64,000 nt of DNA from Gloeomargaritales cyanobacterium VI4D9 (GTDB lineage: Bacteria > Cyanobacteriota > Cyanobacteriia > Gloeomargaritales > Gloeomargaritaceae). The notes below the pieces were generated by a model. The model did not search any database, was not told where the DNA came from, and saw only the letters and a list, made by a program, of their open reading frames with translations. The stretch is from NCBI GenBank assembly GCA_927797885.1, contig OV696605.1, forward strand, positions 2,517,157-2,581,156, in the 5' to 3' direction. Position numbers and translations under genes: made by a program. Positions within the stretch are counted from its first letter, which is position 1. The number at the start of each line of letters is the position of its first letter. Shown here piece by piece: positions 8,234 to 63,197 of this stretch.

Positions 8234-11053
8234 TTACTGAGGGCTTTGCCAAATGATCGCCTGGTTGTCCGACCCCCCGGAAACCAATAGGCGACCGTTA
8301 GGGGCAATCGCCAGGGCTTTAACCGCCTCCTGATGGCTCTTAAGGACTTGCAGAGCCGTTCCCTTGGCCGGGTTCCAGACGGTAATCACCGGACTATCGG
8401 GGGAAGTGGTGCCCGTGCCGGTAAACAACAGGGCATTATCGGGGCTAAAGGCCAAACTGTAAACAATCCCCGGAGCCTGGAGGGTTTTCAACCACGCCCC
8501 ATTGCCCGGGTTCCACAGGCACACCTTGCCATCCCCACCGCCGCTGGCTAATACCTGCCCATCAGGACGAAAGCTCAGTGACCACATCCCATGACGCAAA
8601 TCCGGGCGGGTGAGGGTATATTTGCGGGTGCGGCTGGGCACATCCCAGAGTTCCACCACCTGTTGACCCTGGCTGGCGGCGGCTAAAAGCGTCCCATCCG
8701 GGCTGAGGGCAAGGGCATCAATTTTGCCCAATTCCGGGAGTTGCTGGCGAAAACTGGGGGCACCGGCCAGGTTCAAATCCCACAGATAGACCTCCCCGTT
8801 GGCATCCCCCACGGCCAGAAATTGCCCGCTCGGATTGGTGGCCATGGCAGTAACCACCCCCCTCGGCCCGACCAATTGCCCGATACGGCGGCCATCGTTG
8901 ACCCCCCAGAGTTCCAGATGGCTCCGGTCAAAGCTGGCCAATTGTTGCCCATTGCGGACAAAGGTGACTCCCATAACCGAAACCCCATTCCGGCGCAAAA
9001 AGTCCTTGGGTTGCCCCCCCGGCAGTTGCCAGAGGCTGATACTGCCATCTTCGCTTCCAATTGCCAGGAGATTGCCCTGGGGATTGATGGCCAGGGTATT
9101 CACATAACCGTTGAATTTGGGCAGGGTCAGGGTGGGCTGGAAGGAGGGGGGAACGAAGCTATTGACCAGGTAAAGGGGATTATCCCGCTGGCGGGTTTCC
9201 TGCCACCACAACCAACACCCAGCGGCTAGGGTGAACAAGCCAGCCATCAGTCCCACCAGAAGTAGGGACAAGGGCGGGGTTTTGGGGCGGGGGGGGGAAG
9301 TTTGGCTCCGCAATGCGGGCATCGAGGGTGGCGACATAGCTCCCCGGCGGCCTTGGGTGACTGGTTCCGGGGGTGGGGGAATGGCTCCCCGTCGGCCTTT
9401 GGTAGCTGGTTCCGGGGGTGGGGGAATGGCTCCCCGCCGGCCTTTGGTCGTTGGTTCCTCCGGCAAGGATGCGGGACGGCCATTGACAGGGGCAGTTTTA
9501 GCCGGAGCCACCTGGTAATGCACCAGCACCACCGTCACGTTATCATGGCCATTTTTTTGGTTGGCCAGGTCGATCAACCGTTGGGTGGCCGTGGGTAAAT
9601 CCACCTCCCCCGTGAGGACGGGCAACAGTTCCAACTGCCAATACTGATCCACCAAATTGTTGTCGCTTAACCCATCGGAACAGAGCAAAAAGACACTGTC
9701 CTCATCCAAAGGAAACCGCTGTACCGTCGGGTGAAGCAGATTAGAGGCATTGATCCCCAACGCCTGCACCAAGGCTCCCGCCGCCGGCTGCCTCAACGCC
9801 TGGGGGTAGATGCTATACCCTAAACGCACCTCCCGGGAAGCCACATCATCGTCCGTGGTGACTTGATAACAGCCATAACGCGTGATCCAATAAATGCGAC
9901 TGTCCCCCACATTGGCTAAAAACACCTCGTAATCCCGCAGGAGGGTCATGGTCAGGGTCGTACCCATGCGTTGCCGTTCCTGGCGTTGCTGTTGGTTATT
10001 CACCTGGGTAATCCGGTCGTTGGCATTGCAGACAATCGTGGCCAATTCCTCCGTCACCACCTTGGTATCCACCTTGGCCAGCACCCGGGGATTGAGTTGC
10101 TGGCTGACGGTTTCAATCGCCAGGTTGGAGGCCATATCCCCCCCCTCATGGCCGCCGATGCCATCACAGACAATCGCAAAGGGCAGGCCATCGGTGCCGG
10201 TCAGACGGGAATGCTGATGGGGAGCCGGATAGCACGCATCCTCATTGCGGCGACGGGTCGGACCCGGGTCGGTCAAGGCCACCACACTCACCTGCCCATT
10301 CCAGGTATGACGAAACTCATCCAACCCCCGATCCACCCGTTGGGCAAGTTCTTCCGCACTGGTGATCTGTTGCTGAATCATCCCCTCGCACACCTGTTCC
10401 ATCAATCCCCGCACCACGGGCTGGGTCGTAGGTATCAAACGGGACAACAACTCCCCCAACTGCACCAGGGTCGCCTGCCCCCCATCATGAACCAATTCCC
10501 GCAGACGGAACACCGGCCCTTCCACCCGCAAAAGCTGGGGTTGCAGTAAACTGCCCGCCACCTGTTGATAACTCAGCATCGGCCACAGACGGGCAATTTG
10601 CCACAGCCAACTCAACTGGCGAAACCCGGTCGCTTCCCCCCAGGCTTTCCCAAAGGGTTGAACTGGTTTCAAACGGGGGGTACTGGTGCCGTACTCCTCC
10701 GGCAGTAGGGGTACCTGGGTCAATGCCAACCGGGGTTGTCCCCCCACCGGGAGCACCGCCCGAATTTGGGGTAAATGTAATCGAAACGGAAACAACCGCA
10801 GGTACGGTTGCGCCTCCGTTGGGATCGTATCCAAACTCAAGGGCTGGCGACCCGGTTGCAAATCTAACAGTAAATTCGGCCCCCGCAGGCTATAGCGTTC
10901 CTGGTAAGGGCGTTCTAATTCGACCCCCACCAACGGATCGCCCGTCACCCACAAAAAAATGAATTCCAAGGGCGCACTACAGACCTGACAAACCCGGTTG
11001 GTCTCAGGATTCAGGCTATAGCAATTGGGATTGGAACATTCGATTTTGTCCAT
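8234..11053 (-). CDS. Zinc-ribbon / PP2C phosphatase / WD40 fusion with a central membrane segment
   Basis: 939 residues. Residues 6-26 form a four-cysteine ribbon (CSNPNC and CQVC). Residues about 254-513 are a PP2C Ser/Thr phosphatase with metal-binding motifs RRRNEDACYP, CDGIGGHEGG, NVGDSRIYW, CSDGLSDN and GHDNVTVV. Residues about 535-575 hold three near-copies of a TKGRRGAIPPPPEP unit, probably a flexible linker. One membrane helix lies at about 595-617. Residues 650-939 are seven WD40 repeats, enough for one beta-propeller. I infer a membrane phosphatase that dephosphorylates Ser/Thr proteins inside the cell and senses or binds a partner through the propeller on the other side. The catalytic aspartates are present, so it is probably active. 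It is followed by repeats and faces the same way as pgk. Confidence 0.9.
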   Translation of the reverse strand: MDKIECSNPNCYSLNPETNRVCQVCSAPLEFIFLWVTGDPLVGVELERPYQERYSLRGPNLLLDLQPGRQPLSLDTIPTEAQPYLRLFPFRLHLPQIRAVLPVGGQPRLALTQVPLLPEEYGTSTPRLKPVQPFGKAWGEATGFRQLSWLWQIARLWPMLSYQQVAGSLLQPQLLRVEGPVFRLRELVHDGGQATLVQLGELLSRLIPTTQPVVRGLMEQVCEGMIQQQITSAEELAQRVDRGLDEFRHTWNGQVSVVALTDPGPTRRRNEDACYPAPHQHSRLTGTDGLPFAIVCDGIGGHEGGDMASNLAIETVSQQLNPRVLAKVDTKVVTEELATIVCNANDRITQVNNQQQRQERQRMGTTLTMTLLRDYEVFLANVGDSRIYWITRYGCYQVTTDDDVASREVRLGYSIYPQALRQPAAGALVQALGINASNLLHPTVQRFPLDEDSVFLLCSDGLSDNNLVDQYWQLELLPVLTGEVDLPTATQRLIDLANQKNGHDNVTVVLVHYQVAPAKTAPVNGRPASLPEEPTTKGRRGAIPPPPEPATKGRRGAIPPPPEPVTQGRRGAMSPPSMPALRSQTSPPRPKTPPLSLLLVGLMAGLFTLAAGCWLWWQETRQRDNPLYLVNSFVPPSFQPTLTLPKFNGYVNTLAINPQGNLLAIGSEDGSISLWQLPGGQPKDFLRRNGVSVMGVTFVRNGQQLASFDRSHLELWGVNDGRRIGQLVGPRGVVTAMATNPSGQFLAVGDANGEVYLWDLNLAGAPSFRQQLPELGKIDALALSPDGTLLAAASQGQQVVELWDVPSRTRKYTLTRPDLRHGMWSLSFRPDGQVLASGGGDGKVCLWNPGNGAWLKTLQAPGIVYSLAFSPDNALLFTGTGTTSPDSPVITVWNPAKGTALQVLKSHQEAVKALAIAPNGRLLVSGGSDNQAIIWQSPQ

Positions 11054-11118: not shown

Positions 11119-12351
11119 CTATGCGTTCTCGAGGGCGGCAATCCCAGGCAAGATTTTCCCCTCCAGCAGTTCCAAACTGGCACCCCCCCCGGTGGAAATG
11201 TGGCTCATCCGTTCCCCCAACCCCGCTTGCTCCACAGCGGCCACCGAGTCCCCTCCACCAATAATCGTGGTACAGCCCTGGTCGGTCAAGTGGGCTAGGG
11301 TTGCGGCCACCGCCCGGGTACCGACGGCAAATTGGTCAAATTCAAACACCCCCATTGGTCCATTCCAAATCACCGTCTGACAGCCCTGGAGTGCCTGCTC
11401 AATTTGGGCAATGGCGGCAGGGCCAATATCCAACCCCATCCAGTCCTCGGGAATCGCCGTCACCGGCACGGTCTGGGCTTGGGCATCCGGGGCAAATTTG
11501 TCCGCCACCACCACATCCGTCGGCAGTACCAGTTCCACCCCCCGCTCCTTCGCCTTGGCAAGTAGGCTCTGCGCCAAATCTAACTTGTCCGTTTCCACCA
11601 GGGATTTCCCCACGCTCAACCCCTGGGCTTGGTAGAAGGTGAAAATCATCCCCCCGCCCAGGATTAGCTTGTCCACCTTATCCAAAAGGGTTTCAATCAC
11701 GCCAATTTTACTGGACACCTTGGAACCACCGATAATCGCCGCCAAAGGTCTGCGGGGCTGGTCAATCGCCCCCTGAAGATATTGCAATTCTTTCTCAATC
11801 AAAAACCCCGCCACTGCCGGTTTCAGGTAATGGGTCACCCCTTCGGTGGAGGCGTGTGCCCGGTGAGCCGTACCAAAAGCATCATTCACATAGAGATCGG
11901 CCAAACTCGCCAATTTCCTGGCAAATTCCGGGTCGTTGGCTTCCTCTTCTGCGTAAAAACGCACATTTTCCAGCAGAGCCACCTGCCCATTTTGCAAGCC
12001 CTGTACCATTTGGGTGGCTACCGCACCGATGCAATCCGGGACAAACTGCACTGGCGTACCCAGTAATTCCCCCAGCCGAGTTGCCACAGGAGCCAGACTA
12101 TTCCCCTCTTTAACTAATTTCACTTCACCAGTGGTTTTATCCTTTTTGAAGGGTCGCCCCAGATGACTGCACAGCACCACCCGTGCCCCCCGTTCACGCA
12201 AATAATTGATAGTCGGCAGAGCCGCCCGCACCCGGGTATCATCCGTAATCTGCTGTTCCTTATCCAAAGGCACATTAAAATCCACCCGCACCAGAACCCG
12301 TTTGCCCTCCAGGTCCTGCGCCGTCAGACTGGCCACCGATTTTTTTGCCAC
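11119..12351 (-). CDS. pgk: Phosphoglycerate kinase
   Basis: Interconverts 1,3-bisphosphoglycerate and ADP with 3-phosphoglycerate and ATP in the Calvin cycle and glycolysis. The start chosen is the GTG at 12351 ([20 protein letters not shown]): a clear GGAGG ribosome-binding site lies about seven bases upstream, while the longer frame to 12432 adds 27 unlikely residues and runs up to the divergent gene. This gives 410 residues, the usual length. Visible motifs are RVDFNVPLD, the substrate-binding [17 protein letters not shown], and the nucleotide-binding [10 protein letters not shown] near the C-terminus. Confidence 0.97.
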
Positions 12352-12438
12352 AGGGTACCTCCACCAAAATCTGGAATAATTATTGATGTATCCATATCCC
12401 CATCCCATTGTACCGGCGAAAAGGTTCCCCACACCCCT

Positions 12439-21503: not shown

Positions 21504-23282
21504 TTAATAGAGAATTCTTCCTGTCAAAGTACCACTGCAAGAAGTAAGAGAATTTGAATTTCCACGATTAGAAACAAATGAACTTTTGACAGTCAGAATA
21601 CCTGCAATTTTGTTATAGTGCCATGGTAATCGGGCAAACTCCCCTCCTATGGGTCTAGCTAGGCAAGTTCTTGCCCCATACCAAACCTAGCCAAACTTTG
21701 ATACCCTAAGAATAAGGATTAGTTTCTGGGCAATTACTTTCCATGCGTTTGCATTTTTTATATCGAATTATCGCCCTGTGGTCACTAACTTTCATGGCGG
21801 TGCTATGGATGCCTCAACCTATGCGGGGACAAGTTGCCCTGCCCCAACAACAATCCCAGGTCGTTTTACCAAGTAATGTCACCCGCTATGGAAATATCGA
21901 AACTACTGATGTCGTATTTGATGGTAAAAGTTTGTTTACGATTGCCTCTCCAACGGTGCGAGATCGTAATAAGGCCAATAATCTTGTCCCGGTTGAGATT
22001 CGGGCGGAACTTATTGAAGCCAATTTGCGCCGGATTGTGGCACCTTACACACAAAACTTACTCGATAATCGTGAACCTAAAGTAATCATTTCTGTGGCAA
22101 CTTTGAACAATGAAACCGTGATTTTAGGTCGGACAGAATACCAAAAACAAAACATTACGATTCTGACGGTTACCGAACTGGATTCATCATACAATGGGGT
22201 AGCCATCCCCGAACTTGCTGAGGAATGGCGAGGTATTATTCAAAACAATCTTCAAGAGGCTATTTCCCAGAGGACACCCGAAGCCCTCTTAGGTCAAATA
22301 TACAAAGCGTTTCAGGCTCTTATTTTCGTATTATTTATTAGTTTAATTCTGTTTGCATTGCAATCCCTCATCAACCGCCGTAAGCTACACATACAAAAAC
22401 AAATTATGAATCTAAAAGAGACTCAAAAACAACCAGAACAGCCATCGCCTCATACCCATGGACTACACCGACAAAGAATTGAATTTATCACCCACGTTAA
22501 ATCCTATTTTGACTATGAACACAGAAACAAAATCATCTCTTTATTTGGCTATATCTTACTGTGGGTACAACTAGCGGTTTTGTTAGCAGGCATATCCTAT
22601 ATTCTCTCGATTTTTCCGCAGACAAGGCCAGTTTCTAACCAGATTTTACGCCTGCCTATCATGTGGTTGACCATGTGGTTTGTCACGGGTTTAGGTGATA
22701 AGTTTGGGGACTTTTTGATTGACCGTTTACGACAGGCTTGGGAAAAATATAATTTGTTTGAAATTGGTGAACTTGCCCGCAAATCCCTGCGAATCTCGAC
22801 CACTGTAGAAACCCTGCGGGGCGTGAAAACTGCTCTACTTTATTTCATAAGAGTCAGTTATATTCTCAATACATTGGGGGTACCGATTAGTTCGATATTT
22901 GCGTTGGGGGGATTGATTGCATTAGCTATTTCTCTCGGGTCACAAAACGTAATCAAAGATATTATCAATGGCTTGCTGATTCTGTGGGAAGACCAGTTTG
23001 GTATTGGCGATATTATCCAGATTGGCGAATATACAGGTATGGTCGAAAGCATGAGTTTACGGATTACCCAACTGCGGAATCCTGAAGGCTGTTTGATCAC
23101 GATTCCCAATAGCAGTATCGTCAAAGTTTCTAATTTGACTCGGCTGTGGTCACGGGTCAATTTTGAGATTTTAGTGGACTGTCAAACCGACCCTACTCAA
23201 GCCCTCCAGGTGCTCAAAAAAGTTACGCAGGAATTTTATGCTGACCCGGACTGGCGGCAAAGTTTGGTGGAATTTCCAGAAG

Positions 23283-24390
23283 CACAAGTGTTGAATCCTG
23301 CAATAAAACTTTACATATTTAGGCGTGGGACGACCCGATTGAGCCAATGGACAAAATTCCACTCCTGCCGTATTAAGATTTGTATATATCGGAACTTATC
23401 TGCCAATTTACTTCCGTACATCCGTGGAACTTTTAACAGTTGCAATATCAAGTAAACTATTAAAATTACATAAATTTGAATGGTAATTCCATTCAAATTT
23501 TTACTCATCATTTTATCGAGCTTTAAGTTCATCTTTAGAAATTTCCATAGTACCTCTATCGCCCAGCGTTGTCTATAGGCTTCCCCTATCTCTTCATTAC
23601 TCATTACATCCTCAGGAATATTGGTAGCTAAATAATAGTCTACTTTCTGTTGAACATTGCCAAAACAAACTACTCTCGCCTTACCTCGTTCTGTGGTGAT
23701 ATGATAGTTTTCATCCCATTTCCAATTCGACTTAATACGGATAATAAAAAGGGCATCATTTTCGATAAATTGTTCAAATACTTTGTGACTGCAAAACCCT
23801 CTATCCCCGACTGCGACTCCATTTTCCGGTAGCATTTTCACAATATCTTCACCAAAATTAATCTCATGTGCCTGTCCAGGACTAACAATTAAATGACCAG
23901 TAGATTTCGTATCTTGATTCAAAGTGGTTATTAACTTTACTTGGCGATAGCCTTGGAGCCAAAATAACTTACTCATCAGCGGTATTACGGTAGCATCAAA
24001 AGGACATAAAACCAACCTCTTTTCAGGATGAGCTTCCTCAATATAATGCAATAATTTATGATAAAGATGCATAAAAATTTGTGGGTCTCTTGTCTTGTTC
24101 GCCTTAGAAAACGTGGATAAGTCAACCTTAATGCCCGCATGATTTAATTGGTAAAATAAGTCCCGTAAACTGTTGATTCCTTTGTCTAAAATGCCAGCAA
24201 ACCAGATTGAACAAAATAAGCGAGAATTTAGAACTGGATAATCATTAGTTGGCAGGTCTTTGAGTAAAAATTTGACAATCCCGGGAAAAGAATTGAATTT
24301 CATAGTTGTTTCATGTTTTGGTTTATATGAATTAGAATACCATATTTTGACCCCTCTTTTTCTGCCTTTACCTACCTTTCAACACTTCTG
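23283..24390 (-). mobile_element. IS4-like insertion sequence, copy 1 (1108 bp)
   Basis: Outer ends CACAAGTGTTGAA and TTCAACACTTCTG form inverted repeats of 13 bases with one mismatch. Flanked by TTCCAGAAG at 23274-23282 and 24391-24399, a 9-bp duplication. It contains one transposase gene on the minus strand. The encoded protein is identical to that of copy 2. Confidence 0.95.
23311..24303 (-). CDS. IS4-family DDE transposase (copy 1)
   Basis: 330 residues. The DDE triad is visible: PFDATVIPL (first Asp), VGDRGFCS (second Asp) and the Y-x2-R-x3-E-x6-K signature in YRQRWAIEVLWKFLK, which places it in the IS4 family. The frame is complete and the IS has intact ends, so it may be active. The C-terminus has a hydrophobic stretch (IQIYVILIVYLILQLLK) usual in this family. 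Confidence 0.93.
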   Translation of the reverse strand: MKFNSFPGIVKFLLKDLPTNDYPVLNSRLFCSIWFAGILDKGINSLRDLFYQLNHAGIKVDLSTFSKANKTRDPQIFMHLYHKLLHYIEEAHPEKRLVLCPFDATVIPLMSKLFWLQGYRQVKLITTLNQDTKSTGHLIVSPGQAHEINFGEDIVKMLPENGVAVGDRGFCSHKVFEQFIENDALFIIRIKSNWKWDENYHITTERGKARVVCFGNVQQKVDYYLATNIPEDVMSNEEIGEAYRQRWAIEVLWKFLKMNLKLDKMMSKNLNGITIQIYVILIVYLILQLLKVPRMYGSKLADKFRYIQILIRQEWNFVHWLNRVVPRLNM

Positions 24391-33350: not shown

Positions 33351-33995
33351 ATGGTTAGCACCGCACCCCCAAATGTGACCACCGATACTTGGGTCAAAGC
33401 GGACTGGGCAGAGTTTTTAGCTGTGGCGACTCATTTTACGGATGAAAAAGCCCGGTTTTACTACGACAACCACGCCATGAGGGTCGAAACCATGCCGATT
33501 GGGTCAGGACATGGACGGGACAATACCCTGCTCTCCCAAATTGTGACCCTTTATTGCCTGGCAAAAAATATTCGGATTGTCGGCTTTACCAATGGCAGTT
33601 TTCGGCAAGCAGGGGTGCGAGAATGTCAGCCTGATTTAGCCTTTTATGTGGGGGATGATTTTCAAATTCCCCCCAAAACCTCCCAACCCATAGAAATTCA
33701 TGAATTTGGGGCACCCCATTTGGTGATTGAAGTAGCCGCCACCACCCTCAATGATGACCTCGGGCACAAGCGTTTACTATACGAACGGTTGGGGGTGCAG
33801 GAGTATTGGGTAGTGGATGCGGAAAGTGGCGAAGTCATTGCTTTTGCCGTGTCCGATGGCGGCAGTCGGCAAATTCAAGTTTCCCAAGTTTTACCCGCCT
33901 TACCCATTGCCATTGTGGAGCAAGCCTTAGCCCAGAGTGAAACGGCAGATGACCGCATGATCTATCATTGGCTATGGCAAACCTTTCAGCATTAA
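33351..33995 (+). CDS. Uma2-family (DUF820) putative endonuclease, copy 1
   Basis: 214 residues. The Uma2 fold is a PD-(D/E)XK type: QPDLAFYVGDD holds the Asp, APHLVIEVAATTLNDDLGHK the Glu and Lys region, and RLGVQEYWVVDAESGEVIAF the usual end. The family is greatly expanded in cyanobacteria, and its activity and purpose are mostly unproven. The copy at 34105 is nearly identical except for one variable segment around residues 45-70 (here MPIGSGHGRDNTLLSQIVTL). Confidence 0.85.
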   Translation: MVSTAPPNVTTDTWVKADWAEFLAVATHFTDEKARFYYDNHAMRVETMPIGSGHGRDNTLLSQIVTLYCLAKNIRIVGFTNGSFRQAGVRECQPDLAFYVGDDFQIPPKTSQPIEIHEFGAPHLVIEVAATTLNDDLGHKRLLYERLGVQEYWVVDAESGEVIAFAVSDGGSRQIQVSQVLPALPIAIVEQALAQSETADDRMIYHWLWQTFQH

Positions 33996-34104: not shown

Positions 34105-34749
34105 ATGGTTAGCACCGCACCCCCAAATGTGACCACCGATGCTTGGGTCAAAGCGGACTGGGCAGAGTTTTTAGCTGTGGCGACTCATTTTACGGATGAA
34201 AAAGCCCGGTTTTACTACGACAACCACGCCATGAGGGTCGAAACCACACTGATTGGGTCAGGACATAGCCAGGCTAATACCATTTTGACCCTAGTTGTGA
34301 CCCTTTATTGCATGGCAAAAAATATTCGGATTGTCGGCTTTACCAATGGCAGTTTTCGGCAAGCAGGGGTGCGAGAATGTCAGCCTGATTTAGCCTTTTA
34401 TGTGGGGGATGATTTTCAAATTCCCCCCAAAACCTCCCAACCCATAGAAATTCATGAATTTGGGGCACCCCATTTGGTAATTGAAGTAGCCACTACCACC
34501 CTCAATGATGACCTGGGACGTAAGCGTTTATTATACGAACGGTTGGGGGTGCAGGAGTATTGGGTAGTGGATGCGGAAAGTGGCGAAGTCATTGCTTTTG
34601 CCGTGTCCGATGGCGGCAGTCGGCAAATTCCAGTTTCCCAAGTTTTACCCGCCTTACCCATTGCTATTGTGGAGCAAGCCTTAGCCCAGAGTGAAACGGC
34701 AGATGACCGCATGATCTATCATTGGCTATGCCAAACCTTTCAGCAGTGA
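34105..34749 (+). CDS. Uma2-family (DUF820) putative endonuclease, copy 2
   Basis: 214 residues, a tandem duplicate of the gene 110 bases upstream. Starts and ends match almost base for base; residues about 45-70 differ (TLIGSGHSQANTILTLVVTL), as do a few scattered positions. The concentrated difference suggests either exchange of one segment with a third paralog or conversion of the flanks. All core residues listed for copy 1 are kept, so both could be active. Confidence 0.85.
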   Translation: MVSTAPPNVTTDAWVKADWAEFLAVATHFTDEKARFYYDNHAMRVETTLIGSGHSQANTILTLVVTLYCMAKNIRIVGFTNGSFRQAGVRECQPDLAFYVGDDFQIPPKTSQPIEIHEFGAPHLVIEVATTTLNDDLGRKRLLYERLGVQEYWVVDAESGEVIAFAVSDGGSRQIPVSQVLPALPIAIVEQALAQSETADDRMIYHWLCQTFQQ

Positions 34750-42348: not shown

Positions 42349-43456
42349 CAGAAGTGTTGAAAGGTAGGTAAAGGCAGAAAAAGAGGGGTCAAAATATGGT
42401 ATTCTAATTCATATAAACCAAAACATGAAACAACTATGAAATTCAATTCTTTTCCCGGGATTGTCAAATTTTTACTCAAAGACCTGCCAACTAATGATTA
42501 TCCAGTTCTAAATTCTCGCTTATTTTGTTCAATCTGGTTTGCTGGCATTTTAGACAAAGGAATCAACAGTTTACGGGACTTATTTTACCAATTAAATCAT
42601 GCGGGCATTAAGGTTGACTTATCCACGTTTTCTAAGGCGAACAAGACAAGAGACCCACAAATTTTTATGCATCTTTATCATAAATTATTGCATTATATTG
42701 AGGAAGCTCATCCTGAAAAGAGGTTGGTTTTATGTCCTTTTGATGCTACCGTAATACCGCTGATGAGTAAGTTATTTTGGCTCCAAGGCTATCGCCAAGT
42801 AAAGTTAATAACCACTTTGAATCAAGATACGAAATCTACTGGTCATTTAATTGTTAGTCCTGGACAGGCACATGAGATTAATTTTGGTGAAGATATTGTG
42901 AAAATGCTACCGGAAAATGGAGTCGCAGTCGGGGATAGAGGGTTTTGCAGTCACAAAGTATTTGAACAATTTATCGAAAATGATGCCCTTTTTATTATCC
43001 GTATTAAGTCGAATTGGAAATGGGATGAAAACTATCATATCACCACAGAACGAGGTAAGGCGAGAGTAGTTTGTTTTGGCAATGTTCAACAGAAAGTAGA
43101 CTATTATTTAGCTACCAATATTCCTGAGGATGTAATGAGTAATGAAGAGATAGGGGAAGCCTATAGACAACGCTGGGCGATAGAGGTACTATGGAAATTT
43201 CTAAAGATGAACTTAAAGCTCGATAAAATGATGAGTAAAAATTTGAATGGAATTACCATTCAAATTTATGTAATTTTAATAGTTTACTTGATATTGCAAC
43301 TGTTAAAAGTTCCACGGATGTACGGAAGTAAATTGGCAGATAAGTTCCGATATATACAAATCTTAATACGGCAGGAGTGGAATTTTGTCCATTGGCTCAA
43401 TCGGGTCGTCCCACGCCTAAATATGTAAAGTTTTATTGCAGGATTCAACACTTGTG
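42349..43456 (+). mobile_element. IS4-like insertion sequence, copy 2 (1108 bp)
   Basis: Ends CAGAAGTGTTGAA and TTCAACACTTGTG. Flanked by TTTTTCCTC at 42340-42348 and 43457-43465, a 9-bp duplication. Inserted in the IS5-like transposase gene. The orientation is opposite to copy 1. Confidence 0.95.
42436..43428 (+). CDS. IS4-family DDE transposase (copy 2)
   Basis: 330 residues with the same protein sequence as copy 1 at 23311-24303, including PFDATVIPL, VGDRGFCS and the YRQRWAIEVLWKFLK signature. Identity of the two proteins points to recent transposition within this genome. The frame is complete and the ends of the element are intact, so it may supply transposase for itself and for the 157- and 175-bp derivatives. 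Confidence 0.93.
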   Translation: MKFNSFPGIVKFLLKDLPTNDYPVLNSRLFCSIWFAGILDKGINSLRDLFYQLNHAGIKVDLSTFSKANKTRDPQIFMHLYHKLLHYIEEAHPEKRLVLCPFDATVIPLMSKLFWLQGYRQVKLITTLNQDTKSTGHLIVSPGQAHEINFGEDIVKMLPENGVAVGDRGFCSHKVFEQFIENDALFIIRIKSNWKWDENYHITTERGKARVVCFGNVQQKVDYYLATNIPEDVMSNEEIGEAYRQRWAIEVLWKFLKMNLKLDKMMSKNLNGITIQIYVILIVYLILQLLKVPRMYGSKLADKFRYIQILIRQEWNFVHWLNRVVPRLNM

Positions 43457-54546: not shown

Positions 54547-55494
54547 ATGATTCGTTATTCCCTGTTGGTGCCGGTTTACAATGAAGCCCAAAATTTACCC
54601 CAGCTGTATCAGCGTCTCCAACCCATTATGGATAGCCTAGATGGCAGCACAGAATTGGTTTTGGTGAATGATGGGAGTCGGGATGAGTCTTTAGGATTAA
54701 TGCGGGAATTGCATCAGAAAGACCGGCGGGTTTGTTATATCAATTTAGCACGGAATTTTGGGCATCAAATTGCCGTGAGTGCGGGATTACAGTTTGTGCG
54801 GGGAGAGGCGGTGGTAATTTTAGACGCAGATTTACAAGACCCACCGGAATTGATCCCCGATATGATTGCCCTGTGGAAGCAGGATTATCAGGTGGTTTAT
54901 GGTCAAAGAATCAAGCGCAAAGAAAATTGGTTTAAGCGGTTGTGTGCCTACAGTTTTTATCGGGTGTTGGGGTATTTAGCCAGCGTGGACATTCCTCGGG
55001 ATACGGGGGATTTTTGTCTTTTGGATCGGCGGGTGGTGGATGTGTTAAATGCGATGCCGGAGCGCAACCGTTATGTGCGGGGATTGCGGGCGTGGGTAGG
55101 GTTTCGGCAAACGCCGATTTTTTATCACCGTCCACCCCGGTACGCTGGCGAACCAAAGTACACCTTTCGCAAAAGTTTATCCCTAGCCATTAACGCTTTA
55201 GTATCATTCTCCCGAGTGCCCTTACGGTTGGCGACTTATCTGGGTTTTTTGGCGGGGCTGGTGGCTTTGGGAATGTTTGTCCTCGTGATTTATTGGCGAA
55301 TTTTTGCGCCCAATTCCTCCCTGGCGGGTTATACGATGGTGATTTTAACGGTACTATTTTTAAGTGCGGCTCAACTGATTACCATTGGCATTCTTGGGGA
55401 ATATATTGGTCGAATTTATGAGGAGGTAAAAGCCCGTCCTTTGTTTACGGTTTCAGAAGTGTGTGGTTTTGCATCTCAGGAGATTGAATCATGA
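54547..55494 (+). CDS. GT2 glycosyltransferase, dolichol-phosphate-mannose-synthase/GtrB type
   Basis: 315 residues. [19 protein letters not shown] and [11 protein letters not shown] are the nucleotide-sugar motifs, [19 protein letters not shown] the metal-binding DAD, and [13 protein letters not shown] the acceptor side. Two C-terminal membrane segments (about 230-255 and 265-290) match enzymes that load a sugar on polyprenyl phosphate. The stop overlaps the ATG of the next gene (ATGA). I infer that it supplies the lipid-linked sugar for the downstream membrane protein. Its C-terminal part is repeated at 59604-59862. Confidence 0.9.
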
Positions 55495-57143
55495 ATCAGC
55501 TTGAACTTCCAGCATATAAAGAGCATAAAGTTGAATTTACTCTCGGACGAACTTTACTTTGGTTGTTAATCGCTGGACTATTTACCACGATGCAGATTCA
55601 ACAATCCCTGCGGGGTGGACGATTGATATCTTGGTTCCTACTTGATGATGATGCAAGTTATTATGTAGATGCCTTACGCCGGTTGATGGTCTTTCACGGC
55701 GGTGGGCCGGATAAATTATTCCTTGATTTTATCCAAAATGGTATGCATGCACCGGGAGGAACCTTACCTGCCCTGCTTGGATTTGGTTTGTTTGGTCCCT
55801 ACGATTGGGCACCTTCTGCGGCACGAGGATTGGTTATCTTTGGCCTCATTGTATTTGTTGCTGAATATCTATGCCGAGGATTACCCCTGATTTGGAAACT
55901 CTGTGTGGTGACCTTGGCACTAACCTGGCGGATTATTGGAGCTACGGTTACGGAAGGTCGCCCTGATTTAACGATGTCGCTACTTGGGGCGATGGGTATC
56001 ATGCTGGTTACAGAATCAAATTGGTTGCGATCCTGCTGGGAAAAACAAGTTTTTACTGGGGTAATTTGGGGGTTAGCCTTTTTATGGAAACCTAGTGCCA
56101 GTGTTGTGACAGTATTTTTATTTGTTTGTACGTTGTTCATTGCTAGTTTTTTAGATTTTCTGAAGGACAAAAGTTTACGTTCCAACATCATTCCCGTCAC
56201 CCTGCGTTGTGCTGGTGTCACCATGGCCGTTGCATTTGTGCATTACGCTATTAACTGGCGGGGAATTTTGGGTTATATCAATATGGTTTTGTTTGGTAAA
56301 TCTAGCCGAGAGTTTCATCAAAATTTATCGCTTTTAGGTCACGGGCTTTACTATCTATCTGGAGCAGCCGGTCGTTGGTTGATTGGGTATCATTGGTTGG
56401 CTATGACGATAGCCCTGGTCGTTATGGCTTTGGTTACTTTTTGGTATCAAAGCACCTCAAGATCTAATCATAGCTTACCGCTCGCTTCCTTCGGTATGTT
56501 TTTAATTACTTGGTTATCGGTGAGTATTCCTAAAACGAAAACCACCTATATTGGTGCAATTTGCCCCTCTTTGATTTTTTTTGTGGCTTTGTATTTAATC
56601 GTTTACTTAATTGGTTGTTATCAATCGGCATCCACTAGGCAAAAATTAATTTTTTATGGGGGCATGTCTGTCCTAACGGCTGTGGCAATTGGCCAATTGA
56701 AATGGCCAGCCGCTCGCTATGATGTAGTGGGGGCACAAAAGCTTTACCAAATCACACAGGAAATAGCGGTTGATTTGGCACGACAGGTTAAACCTGATGA
56801 ACTAATTGTAGAATTGTCCCACGGGTACCCGTCAGTGGCTAACTACCACATATTGAAAACAGGAATTGACCCCCAACTTCAGGGTGTCACCTTCTCGCAT
56901 AAAGATTTGGAAATTGCTTTGAGACTATTTAATCAAGCGGATTATGTACTTTTTGATACCGGTTATCTGGATATTCTTGACCGTGACTTAAAGCTTGGTA
57001 AAATCACTCAGTCTGACTATGAAACCGTACAAAAATTAATTCGTAAATTAAATACTCCCAGATATCAAAAAGTGAAACAATATCCCAATCCCTATCCTTT
57101 GGAAGACGGGCGTACATTGTTTTTCTACCGACGTGTTGTGTAG
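55491..57143 (+). CDS. Polytopic membrane protein, likely GT-C-type glycosyltransferase, copy 1
   Basis: 550 residues with about ten hydrophobic segments. After the first segment comes [20 protein letters not shown], where GT-C enzymes carry a catalytic acidic pair. Later features are [14 protein letters not shown] and [14 protein letters not shown]. The C-terminal 120 residues are soluble. Together with the preceding GT2 it fits a two-gene system that moves a sugar from a lipid carrier to an acceptor outside the cytoplasm; this is inference. The paralog at 59859 is nearly identical over the first 155 residues and more diverged after. Confidence 0.75.
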
Positions 57144-57814: not shown

Positions 57815-58923
57815 CAGAAGTGTTGAACGATAGGTAAAGAGAGAAAAAAATGGGGTCAGAATATGGTATCCTAACCCCTATAAATTCAAAAATTAGTTAC
57901 CTATGAAATTAAACTCTTTTCCGGGGATTGTCAACTTTTTGCTCAAAGACTTGCCGACTAATGATTATCCAGTTCTAAATTCTCGTCTATTTTGTTCAAT
58001 CTGGTTTACTGGTATTTTAGACAAAGGAATCAACAGTTTAAGGGACTTATTTTACCAATTGAATCATACAGGCACTCAGGTTGACTTATCTACATTTTCT
58101 AAGGCCAACAAGACAAGAGACCCACAAATTATTCTTGGTCTTTACCATAAATTATTACATTACATTGAGAAAGCTCACCCTGAGAAGAAACTAGTTTTAT
58201 GTCCTTTTGATGCTACCGTAATACCACTGATGAGTAAGTTATTTTGGCTCCAAGGCCATCGTCAAGTAAAGTTAATAACTACTTTGAATCAAGACACGAA
58301 ATCCACTGGTCATTTAATCATTAGTCCTGGGCAGAAACATGAGATTAATTTTGGTGAAGAGATTATGAGAATGTTGCCGGAAAATGGAGTTGCAGCCGGG
58401 GATAGAGGGTTTTGCAGTCGCAAATTATTTGATAAATTTATCGAAAATAATACTCTTTTCATTATCCGTATTAAATCTAATTGGAAATGGGATGAAAACT
58501 ATCATATCGCTACAGGACAAGGCAAGGTAAGAGTGATTTGTTTTGGGAATGTTCAACAGAAGGTAGAATATTATTTAGCTACCAATGTTCCTGAGGAAAT
58601 AATGAGTAATGAAGAGATAGGAGAAGCCTACAAACAACGCTGGGCAATAGAAGTATTATGGAAGTTTCTCAAGATGCACTTGAAGTTAGATAAAATGATG
58701 AGTAAAAATTTGAATGGGATTACAATTCAAATTTATGTAATTTTAATAGTCTATTTGATATTGCAACTGTTAAAAGTTCCACAGATGTACGGGAGTAAAT
58801 TAGTAGGCAAGTTGAGATATATACAAATTGTAATACGGCGGGAGTTGAATTTTATCAATTGGCTCAATCGGGTCATTCCCCGTCTTGATATGTAAAGTTT
58901 TGTTGCAGGATTCAACACTTGTG
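57815..58923 (+). mobile_element. IS4-like insertion sequence, copy 3 (1109 bp, diverged)
   Basis: Ends CAGAAGTGTTGAA and TTCAACACTTGTG. Flanked by CGAGACCAT at 57806-57814 and 58924-58932, a 9-bp duplication. It differs from the other two copies at many positions spread over the whole element, so it represents a second lineage. Confidence 0.95.
57903..58895 (+). CDS. IS4-family DDE transposase (copy 3)
   Basis: 330 residues, same length as copies 1 and 2 but with scattered substitutions (for example NHTGTQVDLS, AAGDRGFCSRKLFDKF). The triad PFDATVIPL, GDRGFCS and YKQRWAIEVLWKFLK is kept, so it could be active. Most differences look conservative, which fits two functional lineages rather than decay. 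Confidence 0.92.
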   Translation: MKLNSFPGIVNFLLKDLPTNDYPVLNSRLFCSIWFTGILDKGINSLRDLFYQLNHTGTQVDLSTFSKANKTRDPQIILGLYHKLLHYIEKAHPEKKLVLCPFDATVIPLMSKLFWLQGHRQVKLITTLNQDTKSTGHLIISPGQKHEINFGEEIMRMLPENGVAAGDRGFCSRKLFDKFIENNTLFIIRIKSNWKWDENYHIATGQGKVRVICFGNVQQKVEYYLATNVPEEIMSNEEIGEAYKQRWAIEVLWKFLKMHLKLDKMMSKNLNGITIQIYVILIVYLILQLLKVPQMYGSKLVGKLRYIQIVIRRELNFINWLNRVIPRLDM

Positions 58924-59324: not shown

Positions 59325-59862
59325 CATGAGTCTTTTGCAACTTTCGCTACGATTAGTCCCTTGCCAACTTCTGCCCTGCCCACCACTGGCACCCCAGATT
59401 CTTTCCCCGAGGTGAGTTCCCTGGTGCTGTACGGGAGCCTATGCCTTGATTGACAGCTTGCACCGCCATGCAGTGAAACATATTTTTGGCTATCCCGGCG
59501 GGGCGATTTTGCCAATCTACGATGAATTGTACCGCTGGGAAGCCCAGGGTAAAATCCAGCACATTCTAGTGCGCCATGAGCAGGCCTCTGGTCATGCTAC
59601 CGAATACTTAGGTTTTTTGGCAGGATTGATAGCCTTGATCATGTCTTTTTTAGTGATTTATTGGCGAATTTTTGCCCCCAATTCCCCCCTGGCGGGTTAT
59701 ACGATGGTGATTTTAACGGTACTATTTTTAAGTGCCGCTCAACTGATTACCATTGGCATTCTTGGGGAATATATTGGCCGAATTTATGAGGAGGTAAAAG
59801 CCCGTCCTTTGTTTACGGTTTCAGAAGTGTGTGGTTTTGCATCTCAGGAGATTGAATCATGA
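59325..59862 (+). pseudogene. Chimera: acetolactate synthase large subunit (ilvB) N-terminal fragment joined to GT2 C-terminal fragment
   Basis: From about 59432 the frame reads [20 protein letters not shown] and [20 protein letters not shown] then [13 protein letters not shown], the start of IlvB with its ThDP-domain motif. At about 59604 it passes in frame into [20 protein letters not shown] and the C-terminal end of the GT2 at 54547-55494. Upstream of 59432 the IlvB frame is shifted by a short indel. The GT2 catalytic domain and nearly all of IlvB are missing, so neither activity remains. A product of 138 residues from 59446 with two membrane segments is possible. Its stop overlaps the next ATG exactly as in the first copy. 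Confidence 0.8.
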
Positions 59863-61514
59863 ATCAGCTTGAACTTCCAGCATATAAAGAGCATAAAGTT
59901 GAATTTACTCTCGGACGAACTTTACTTTGGTTGTTAATCGCTGGACTATTTACCACGATGCAGATTCAGCAATCCCTGCGGGGTGGACGATTGATATCTT
60001 GGTTCCTACTTGACGATGATTCAATTTATTATGTAGATGCCTTACGCCGGTTGATGGTCTTTCACGGCGGTGGGCCGGATAAATTATTCCTTGATTTTAT
60101 CCAAAATGGTATGCATGCACCGGGAGGAACCTTACCTGCCCTGCTTGGATTTGGTTTGTTTGGTCCCTACGATTGGGCACCTTCTGCGGCACGAGGATTG
60201 GTTATCTTTGGCCTCATTGTATTTGTTGCTGAATATCTATGCCGAGGATTACCCCTGATTTGGAAACTCTGTGTGGTGACCTTGGCACTAACCTGGCGGA
60301 TTATTGGAGCTACGGTTACGGAAGGTCGCCCTGATTTAACGATGGCACTACTTGCGGCGATGGGCATCATGTTGATTACAGAATCCAATTGGTTGGGTTC
60401 CCGGTGGCAAAAACAAGTTTTTACTGGGGTCATTTGGGGCCTCGCATTACTGTGGAAACCTAGTGCTAGTATCGTGACTATATTTCTATTTGTCTTTGCT
60501 CTTGGTATTGCAAGTTTCTACGAATGGTTTAAGGATAAAGGTTTATTTCAAAACATAATCCCTGTAAATCTACGATGTTTAGGTGCAACTGTTGCGGTCG
60601 CATTCATCCATTATGTAATTAATTGGCAAGGAATTTTAGGTTATATTAATATGGTTTTATTTGGTAAATTTAGTAGAGAGTTTCATCAAAATTTATCTTT
60701 TTTAGGTCACGGTCTTTACTATCTATCTGGGGCGGCTGGTCGTTGGTTGATTGGCTATCATTGGCTGGTTCTTTTTGTGTTAATCAGTACCCTGGCTTTA
60801 GGGCATTTCTGGTATCAAAATCGCCAAGATTTCTGGCCCAATTTTCCCGTGGTAGCACTAATTATGTTTTTGATTACCTGGTTATCCGTAAGCATCCCCA
60901 AGACTAAAACGCCCCATATTGGTGCAGTATTCCCAGCTTTAATTTTTTTTGTAGCTCTGTATTTGGTCGTTTACTTAATTCGCTATTATCAATTGGCATC
61001 TAATAGGAAGAAACTAATTTTTTATGGTGGAATGTCCCTCCTGACGGCTGTGGCAATTGGACAGATGAAATGGCCTGCGGCTCGTTATGATGTGGCATCA
61101 GCACAAAAAGTTTACCAAATTACGCAGGAAATAGCAGTTGATTTGGCACAACAGGTTAAACCCAATGAGCTAATTGTAGAATTATCCTACTGGTATCCCT
61201 CGGTGGCTAACTACCACATATTGAAAACAGGAATTGACCCCCAACTTCAGGGGGTGACTTTTTCTCATCAAGATTTGGCAAATGCTCTAAAATTATTTAA
61301 TCAGGCTGATTATATATTTTTTGATACAGGTTATGTTGATAGTGTTGAACGGGACTTAAACAATGGTAAAATCACTGAGTATGAATATAATACGGTACAA
61401 GATTTGATTCGTAAATTAGATTCACCTAAATATCAATTGCTCCAAGAATACCCCAATCCCTATCCCCTTGAGCAAGGTCGCAAATTATTCTTATACCAAC
61501 GGATTAAATCTTGA
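59859..61514 (+). CDS. Polytopic membrane protein, likely GT-C-type glycosyltransferase, copy 2
   Basis: 551 residues, paralog of 55491-57143. The first 155 residues differ by only a few changes ([14 protein letters not shown]), then identity drops through the middle and end (for example [20 protein letters not shown]). Acidic loop, membrane layout and soluble C-terminus are kept, so the gene looks functional. It lacks its own intact GT2 partner and would have to use the upstream one. Confidence 0.75.
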
Positions 61515-61578: not shown

Positions 61579-61890
61579 ATGCGACGGATTGATGTGATTG
61601 GTTTGGGGTTCGCCCTGTTGGGGGTGGGGGGGTTGCTCTATTTGCTCCTCCAGGCTTTCGGTTTAGATAGTTTGCAAGCCGGGTTGTGGAGCCAAGTGAC
61701 CCTGACAGTGGGTTTGATGGTTTGGATTGCCACCTATTCTTTGCGGGTGGTACGCAAGGACATGACCTACCATCAACAACGGGAACACTACGACCGGGCT
61801 TGGCTCGCCCGTCAGATTGAACAGCTTTCCCCCGAAGAGTGGGAGCGGTTACAGCGGGAAGTGGAACAAACCGAGGTCACTAAGGATTAA
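61579..61890 (+). CDS. DUF3007 family membrane protein
   Basis: 103 residues. MRRIDVIGLGFALLGVGGLL and a second segment (LWSQVTLTVGLMVWIATYSL) are two membrane helices, followed by RVVRKDMTYHQQREHYDRAW and a coiled charged tail (LSPEEWERLQREVEQTE). This pattern is that of DUF3007, found in cyanobacteria and plastids; its function is unresolved. Its stop overlaps the 3' end of the convergent phosphatase gene by a few bases. Confidence 0.8.
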   Translation: MRRIDVIGLGFALLGVGGLLYLLLQAFGLDSLQAGLWSQVTLTVGLMVWIATYSLRVVRKDMTYHQQREHYDRAWLARQIEQLSPEEWERLQREVEQTEVTKD

Positions 61891-63197
61891 TCCGTCACCC
61901 GTGCCACAATTAATGTAATGTCATCCCCCGCCGTCCCCCGGGCACCGACAAAGGCTTTCACCTGCATAAATAAATACTCCAAAATATCCTGGGCGCTGGT
62001 GTGTAACCCACAGGCATCCTGCACCGCCTGGAGCAACCCCGCCGTCTCAAACCGTGCCCCGTGGACGTTAGCCGCATCCGTAAAGCCGTCCGTGTAATAC
62101 ACCAACACATCTCCAGGCGCAAGGGTCACGGTGCCGTTTTCATACTGACTTTGGGGTTCCAGACCGATGAGCATCCCGGGGGTGTCCAACTGAAGTATTT
62201 GCTGGGAGGCACATTGCCAGAACAGAGGCGGGTTGTGGGCGGCATTACAAAAGGTCAAGTTGCGGGTCACCGGGTCATATTCGGAATAAAACAGGCTCAC
62301 AAAGCGGTGGGAATTGGTTAAATCTTCGTACATCACCTGGTTCAGGTGGCTGAGAATGTCCGCCGGTGAATTGCCCCGCAAGACTTCCGAGCGCAACATC
62401 CCCCGGGTCATGGTCATGATCAGCCCGGCGGGTACTCCTTTGCCCATCACATCCCCGATCACAATCGCCCAGCGTTGCCCCCCCGCCACCGGGATAAAGT
62501 CGTAATAGTCGCCGCCCACCCACTGCGCCGTGAAATAACGGGACTCCAACTGCAACCCCGGAATCTGGGGATGGGTTTCCGGTAGAAGGTGCTTTTGAAT
62601 TTCTGCCCCCAGCTTTAATTCCCGATCCAGCCGTTCCCGTTCCCGCAGTGCCAGCCGCAACTGCTCCTGCTCAATCGCCACCGCCGTCTGATCCGCCACC
62701 AAATTTAACAACTGCCTGCGGGCATCCGTATTCAGTAAACCAGGGCGGTCACTCAACACCACCAGCCATCCCTGCTCCTGTCCCGCCACAATCACCGCCG
62801 TCCCCAGCACCTCCACCGACAAGATGGTAGGCAGTTCCGCCTCAACTCGAGTAAACAACGCCCGGGCTGACCCGGCGGGTAACTGTCGCACATAGTCCGC
62901 CAACGGCTCCCGCACCTGCACATCCCATTCCTCCCGGTGGGAGTGAAACTGCGCCAGGGTCAAACGACGATCCTTCTCCTGCCACAGCAACAGTGCCGCC
63001 CCCTCCCCATCACACACCCGGGTGGCAATCACCGGAATCAGTTGTAAAAACTGGTTCAAATTGTGCAAATTCCGCAGGGCTGACCCCAGATAGCTCAGCA
63101 ATTCCTGCACCTTGCGATGCTCCCGCTGGGAACGCGCCACCAATTCCTTGAGGGTGAGGACTCCTGCCAAAGTCGGAGTCGAGGGCTGATCCGCCAT
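61887..63197 (-). CDS. GAF domain / SpoIIE-type (PP2C-like) phosphatase
   Basis: 436 residues. A coiled start (ELVARSQREHRKVQELLSYL) leads into a GAF domain at about 35-190 and a short helical linker (AIEQEQLRLALRERERLDRE). The catalytic domain at about 205-435 has VGGDYYDFIPVAGG, VIGDVMGKGVPAGLIMTMTR, VYYTDGFTDAANV and GDDITLIVARV, the metal-binding Asp residues of RsbU/SpoIIE phosphatases. It probably dephosphorylates an anti-anti-sigma-type partner in response to a GAF ligand; no partner gene is adjacent. No signal peptide. Confidence 0.92.
   Translation of the reverse strand: MADQPSTPTLAGVLTLKELVARSQREHRKVQELLSYLGSALRNLHNLNQFLQLIPVIATRVCDGEGAALLLWQEKDRRLTLAQFHSHREEWDVQVREPLADYVRQLPAGSARALFTRVEAELPTILSVEVLGTAVIVAGQEQGWLVVLSDRPGLLNTDARRQLLNLVADQTAVAIEQEQLRLALRERERLDRELKLGAEIQKHLLPETHPQIPGLQLESRYFTAQWVGGDYYDFIPVAGGQRWAIVIGDVMGKGVPAGLIMTMTRGMLRSEVLRGNSPADILSHLNQVMYEDLTNSHRFVSLFYSEYDPVTRNLTFCNAAHNPPLFWQCASQQILQLDTPGMLIGLEPQSQYENGTVTLAPGDVLVYYTDGFTDAANVHGARFETAGLLQAVQDACGLHTSAQDILEYLFMQVKAFVGARGTAGDDITLIVARVTD

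Follow-up and report, generated by a model that had tools for sequence, protein, structure and literature searches.

How is a cyanobacterial protein to be understood that joins a phosphatase, a hydrophobic helix and a WD40 propeller in one chain? The gene is a single open reading frame (8234-11053, minus strand, ATG start, 939 aa) in the window, i.e. the whole 64,000-nucleotide stretch of DNA that was analysed, from the 3.16 Mb single-contig genome of Gloeomargaritales cyanobacterium VI4D9. The original prediction of a zinc ribbon, a PP2C phosphatase, a proline-rich linker, a membrane helix and a propeller was borne out by the reading frame, the Pfam matches and a structure model, except that a kinase-fold domain has to be added between ribbon and PP2C. 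From the N- to the C-terminus the order is 4-Cys ribbon, kinase-fold domain, PP2C, Pro-rich linker, hydrophobic helix and seven-bladed WD40 propeller. On balance, we read the protein as a membrane-anchored PP2C that is equipped with a regulatory pseudokinase domain and, outside the cytoplasm, with a propeller specific to its lineage. Its features and its conserved neighbour are the following.

8234..11053, minus strand: whole gene, 939 aa (ORF; orthologs L005-L010)
10964..11053, minus strand: 4-Cys ribbon, residues 1-30 (C6, C11, C22, C25; weak NF045510 match)
10313..10909, minus strand: kinase-fold domain, residues 49-247, apparently catalytically dead (AF2 model, Foldseek, VIA-align; no Pfam match)
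9497..10291, minus strand: PP2C (PPM) phosphatase domain, residues 255-519 (PF13672; alignment to tPphA 2j82)
9278..9496, minus strand: disordered Pro-rich basic linker, residues 520-592 (pLDDT under 50 over 519-592)
9339..9458, minus strand: 45-bp tandem repeat in the linker, 2.7 copies (DNA repeat, 90% matches)
9206..9271, minus strand: predicted single transmembrane helix, about residues 595-616 (hydropathy; AF2 helix 595-624)
8246..9139, minus strand: seven-bladed WD40 propeller, residues 639-936 (PF00400; model; PDB match 5yzv)
11119..12432, minus strand: pgk (phosphoglycerate kinase), conserved neighbour 65 bp upstream on the same strand

The catalytic domain matched PF13672 (PP2C_2) at 52.6 bits, the curated cut-off being 24. 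Alignment to tPphA (2j82) of Thermosynechococcus showed that D272, D297/G298, D384, D460 and D504 are retained as metal ligands, together with H302 and R267, the latter representing the phosphate-binding arginine. Among 28 homologs, D272, D297, G298, H302, D384, D460 and D504 are invariant and R267 is present in 27; both alignment and conservation confirm that the PP2C metal residues are complete, as had been claimed. The Pfam score, the metal-binding aspartates and the phosphate-binding arginine place the domain in PPM/PP2C Group I, and we incline to regard the enzyme as a membrane-anchored Ser/Thr phosphatase of this eukaryote-like type.

The complete domain order is present in seven of eight Gloeomargaritaceae genomes (G000-G004, G006, G007), including the named relatives Gloeomargarita sp. 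SKYG116 and Gloeomargaritaceae cyanobacterium C42_A2020_066; the remaining genome (G005, 83% complete) gave no full match. The full-protein search covered 388 cyanobacterial genomes across the class, with fusion counts resting on the roughly 160 strongest matches listed, so that weaker fusions may exist elsewhere. Among these listed matches from the 388 genomes, no alignment spanned the propeller outside the seven Gloeomargaritaceae loci; the other strong ones ended before the propeller or just within its start. A Stenomitos PP2C-WD40 match (L088) was discarded as it consists of two adjacent genes, one of them encoding an ordinary member of the family and the other an NB-ARC-WD40-like protein. 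The domain-architecture search proposed with the original prediction thus confined the full order to one lineage among the matches listed, but the front part proved widespread: a profile of ribbon and middle domain matched 99 of 116 cyanobacterial genomes, often repeatedly.

Ribbon, middle domain, Group I PP2C, linker and helix together make up a widespread family, the cyanobacterial ribbon-PP2C phosphatases (PRK14559 / NF011149). Its closest members outside Gloeomargaritaceae, among the matches listed, show up to 53% identity (residues 9-533), whereas those examined carry Pro-rich or short tails in the place of the WD40 propeller. With the NCBIfam equivalog PRK14559 (NF011149) our protein scores 263 bits, under the cut-off of 374, and the other family members tested also remained under it. 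There is good support for a conserved lineage-specific fusion, built upon a phosphatase family that is widespread in cyanobacteria and contains an unannotated domain of kinase fold.

The propeller gave 132 bits with PF00400, with five stretches above the cut-off, and forms seven blades in the model. Its nearest solved structure is 5yzv, the WD40 domain of the bacterial kinase PkwA (TMt 0.93). In a tree that included ten other WD40 domains (a small sample), the seven phosphatase propellers formed one clade with a support of 100/98, which fits one acquisition. The propeller was probably gained once, in the Gloeomargaritaceae ancestor, by an older protein comprising ribbon, kinase-fold domain, PP2C and helix. 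A derivation from the WD40 kinases of the same genome was not supported, the phosphatase propellers clustering apart in this small sample.

Whether the propeller must act as a sensor can be questioned. The helix might be a mere anchor and the propeller a passive outside scaffold, with a constitutive phosphatase that is regulated, if at all, by its inner domains. Throughout the rest of the family the region following the helix is Pro-rich, of low complexity or almost missing, and because of this variability a fixed sensor is not needed for core function. Moreover, the propeller diverges fast, showing 35% identity to the ortholog L010 versus 74% for the PP2C, the most conserved large part. Rapid divergence, however, equally suits a ligand-binding part, and the propeller is intact in all seven orthologs; we consider a passive propeller rather unlikely and prefer the receptor-like reading.

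The folded domain of about 200 residues between ribbon and PP2C had been overlooked in the first reading. Its AF2 model, made from 43 homologs, reached a pLDDT of 93.7 and a pTM of 0.88. The best 50 Foldseek matches were all kinases or kinase-homology domains (E 0.002-0.01, probability near 1), the kinase-homology domain of Rv3910 among them. VIA-align returned a best Z of 10.6 (174 residues aligned) and a Z of 9.6 at rank 50, the best 50 again all being kinases; 943 of 1000 chains had Z >= 8, with 170-odd of the 199 residues aligned over 49-247. Since models without a clear match typically reach a best Z of 7-8, the likeness to kinases stands above background. From the model, a protein-kinase fold is predicted with high confidence.

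Sequence comparison gave a different picture. No Pfam family matched residues 31-250, PF00069 yielding nothing at E <= 10, and six middle domains of the family returned nothing from Pfam apart from a stray DUF3426. HHalign of the middle domain against cyanobacterial kinase profiles (11, then 41 sequences) was not significant (P ~0.04, barely above controls). With profiles and Pfam devoid of a kinase signal and with Foldseek E-values as modest as those above, the domain could be an unrelated alpha/beta fold that resembles a kinase instead of a degenerate one. This appears improbable given that kinases alone occupy ranks 1-50 in VIA-align and are aligned over almost the entire domain, and that real kinases of the genome share the same 4-Cys prefix.

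For the degenerate kinase that we favour, the register was inferred from the order of helices and strands and from the motifs; the residue equivalences given here depend on it. The catalytic loop then corresponds to residues 165-175, reading V-A-G-S-L-L-Q-P-Q-L-L versus V-I-H-R-D-I-K-P-D-N-L in a kinase of the same genome. The catalytic Lys is represented by D64 (42 of 43 homologs), the HRD Asp by L169 (42 of 43) and the DFG Asp by E186 (39 of 43). The activation segment is almost missing in the model, with a strand ending at 184 and the next helix starting at 196. The middle domain is thus probably a pseudokinase in which all three catalytic residues are apparently replaced.

The ribbon has the spacing C6-x4-C11-x10-C22-x2-C25, and its cysteines are kept in 41 of 43 homologs. 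The NCBIfam 4-Cys prefix NF045510 matched at 15.4 and 20.8 bits, under the curated cut-off of 24 with all four cysteines in place; one family member (L011) reached 24.4 bits. A check for Ser/Thr kinases with similar N-terminal ribbons, as had been suggested, found five kinases in the same genome with a 4-Cys prefix ahead of the kinase domain; because of these, a ribbon and a dead kinase fronting a phosphatase is a natural reading. The genome contains 21 PF00069 matches above the cut-off, plus a weak one that looks like an ABC1-type protein, and three PP2C domains (PF13672). Two loci (L079:985-2919 and L080:819-2993) encode 4-Cys Hanks kinases with C-terminal WD40 and no membrane helix in between, and a third (L081:711-1868) encodes a protein of 385 aa with a ribbon, a membrane helix and seven WD40 repeats, devoid of a catalytic domain. 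As these proteins recombine the same parts, ribbons, helices and propellers are shuffled in this lineage.

A single helix with catalytic domain and propeller on opposite sides, as had been proposed, is supported at the level of prediction. Within the 30 residues flanking the helix, the net charge is +4 to +6 on the PP2C side and -2 to +1 on the far side, a positive-inside bias seen in all seven orthologs. In the wider family, a helix with a mean hydropathy of 1.6 or more occurs at the same place in 43 of 44 proteins; the PP2C side is the more positive one in 34 of 43 and the less positive one in 3. There is good support from this charge bias for a predicted topology with the PP2C inside and the propeller outside, in the periplasm or the thylakoid lumen. 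The helix may alternatively not span the membrane; the propeller would then serve in the cytoplasm as a substrate adaptor, comparable to that of the soluble 4-Cys kinase-WD40 proteins of the genome. Propellers can indeed be cytoplasmic here, because the WD40 of L079 and L080 lacks a membrane helix, and the hydropathy of the helix is modest in the orthologs L008 (1.29) and L009 (1.63). Nevertheless, the strong helix and the one-sided charge excess across the family render this most improbable. A chance arrangement or chimeric assembly was ruled out, because the identical domain order recurs in seven genomes, the six relatives being 50-90% identical.

Within the linker, three near-copies of a 14-residue unit had been noted. 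The tandem repeat exists, but its unit, TKGRRGAIPPPPEPA, comprises 15 residues. It was found in the closest relatives only and is shorter or gone in the other orthologs. It is a recent, non-conserved expansion; being young and missing from most orthologs, it is unlikely to matter and was rejected as a functional motif.

When about 1.5 kb of flank was inspected per locus, pgk was found to directly precede the phosphatase gene at each of the seven Gloeomargaritaceae loci and at no other family locus tested. No terminator-like site was seen in the gap of 65 bp by a scan that is too weak to show co-transcription. The two genes might be co-transcribed, and a link to carbon metabolism is conceivable.

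Searches of open-licence papers on WD40 and PP2C in cyanobacteria, on pseudokinase and PP2C, and on Gloeomargarita WD40 or phosphatase proteins found a description neither of this order nor of the kinase-fold domain. To this extent the order is undescribed, as first thought, but PstP of Mycobacterium tuberculosis sets a precedent for a membrane-bound PP2C that has an extracytoplasmic domain, described there as comprising 191 residues (PMC3052367). An internal PP2C, a juxtamembrane linker, one helix and an extracytoplasmic domain are common to both, whereas ribbon, kinase-fold domain and propeller are not described for PstP (PMC3052367). Our protein has this PstP-type layout by prediction, the extracytoplasmic placement of its C-terminal domain agreeing with the charge bias. 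The receptor kinase PknD from M. tuberculosis likewise combines a cytoplasmic catalytic domain, a membrane-spanning part and an outside beta-propeller, which has six beta-sheet motifs; being an active kinase, it performs the opposite chemistry (PMC6213207). By analogy, the protein may work like PstP combined with PknD.

Cyanobacterial Hanks kinases with seven WD40 repeats are known (cbSTKII, PMC2176072). They, and L079 and L080 with their 4-Cys prefix, share the kinase fold and the seven repeats with our protein, but are active kinases and have no PP2C, nor do L079 and L080 have a membrane helix. HltA is a further cyanobacterial PP2C phosphatase fused to a regulatory domain; it differs in being of Group II (SpoIIE/RsbU-like), in having a GAF domain and in that no membrane helix is described (PMC9430166). 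A second gene of phosphatase type in the window (61887-63197, minus strand) encodes a 436-aa protein of HltA/RsbU-like layout, with a C-terminal SpoIIE domain (PF07228, 193 bits) and an N-terminal part without a Pfam match.

In the arrangement that we envisage, the 4-Cys ribbon and the probable pseudokinase would lie on the cytoplasmic side, ahead of the intact PP2C, and the flexible linker and the one membrane helix would connect these to the seven-bladed propeller in the periplasm or thylakoid lumen. Ribbon and kinase-fold domain may serve in docking or regulation, perhaps by bringing the phosphatase together with the cell's numerous 4-Cys Hanks kinases or with the substrates of these. By binding an outside protein or ligand, the propeller could position or gate the phosphatase, an action opposite to that of a receptor kinase. 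A sensing role, the substrates and an allosteric control are all putative. As a tentative extension, cyanobacteria might widely use the pseudokinase-PP2C fusion as one signalling unit, derived from what was once a 4-Cys kinase; its dead domain would recognise the same partners as active 4-Cys kinases do and bring the phosphatase to them, and in Gloeomargaritaceae the propeller would then have created a true receptor phosphatase.

Bacterial receptor kinases with outside propellers or PASTA repeats are well known, whereas the mirror image, a receptor-like phosphatase, has hardly been explored; the present one could act as an inbuilt counterweight to receptor kinases. The kinase-fold domain before the PP2C, which most of the sampled cyanobacteria possess and no Pfam family matches, would offer a handle on phosphatase targeting. 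Finding the target matters in a genome whose Hanks-kinase matches outnumber its classical PP2C domains by 21 to three.

Elsewhere in the window, three ORFs encode DDE transposases of 330 aa (23311-24303, minus strand; 42436-43428 and 57903-58895, plus strand), the first two being identical proteins and the third slightly diverged. A mechanosensitive-channel-like ORF (21743-23455, plus strand) extends with its final residues into the transposase copy at 23311, and the insertion seems to have truncated it at the 3' end. Near-copies of a gene for a 550-aa membrane protein (55491-57143 and 59859-61514, plus strand) flank a transposase and represent a recent duplication, as do, in tandem, two adjacent, near-identical ORFs of 214 aa (33351-33995 and 34105-34749, plus strand).
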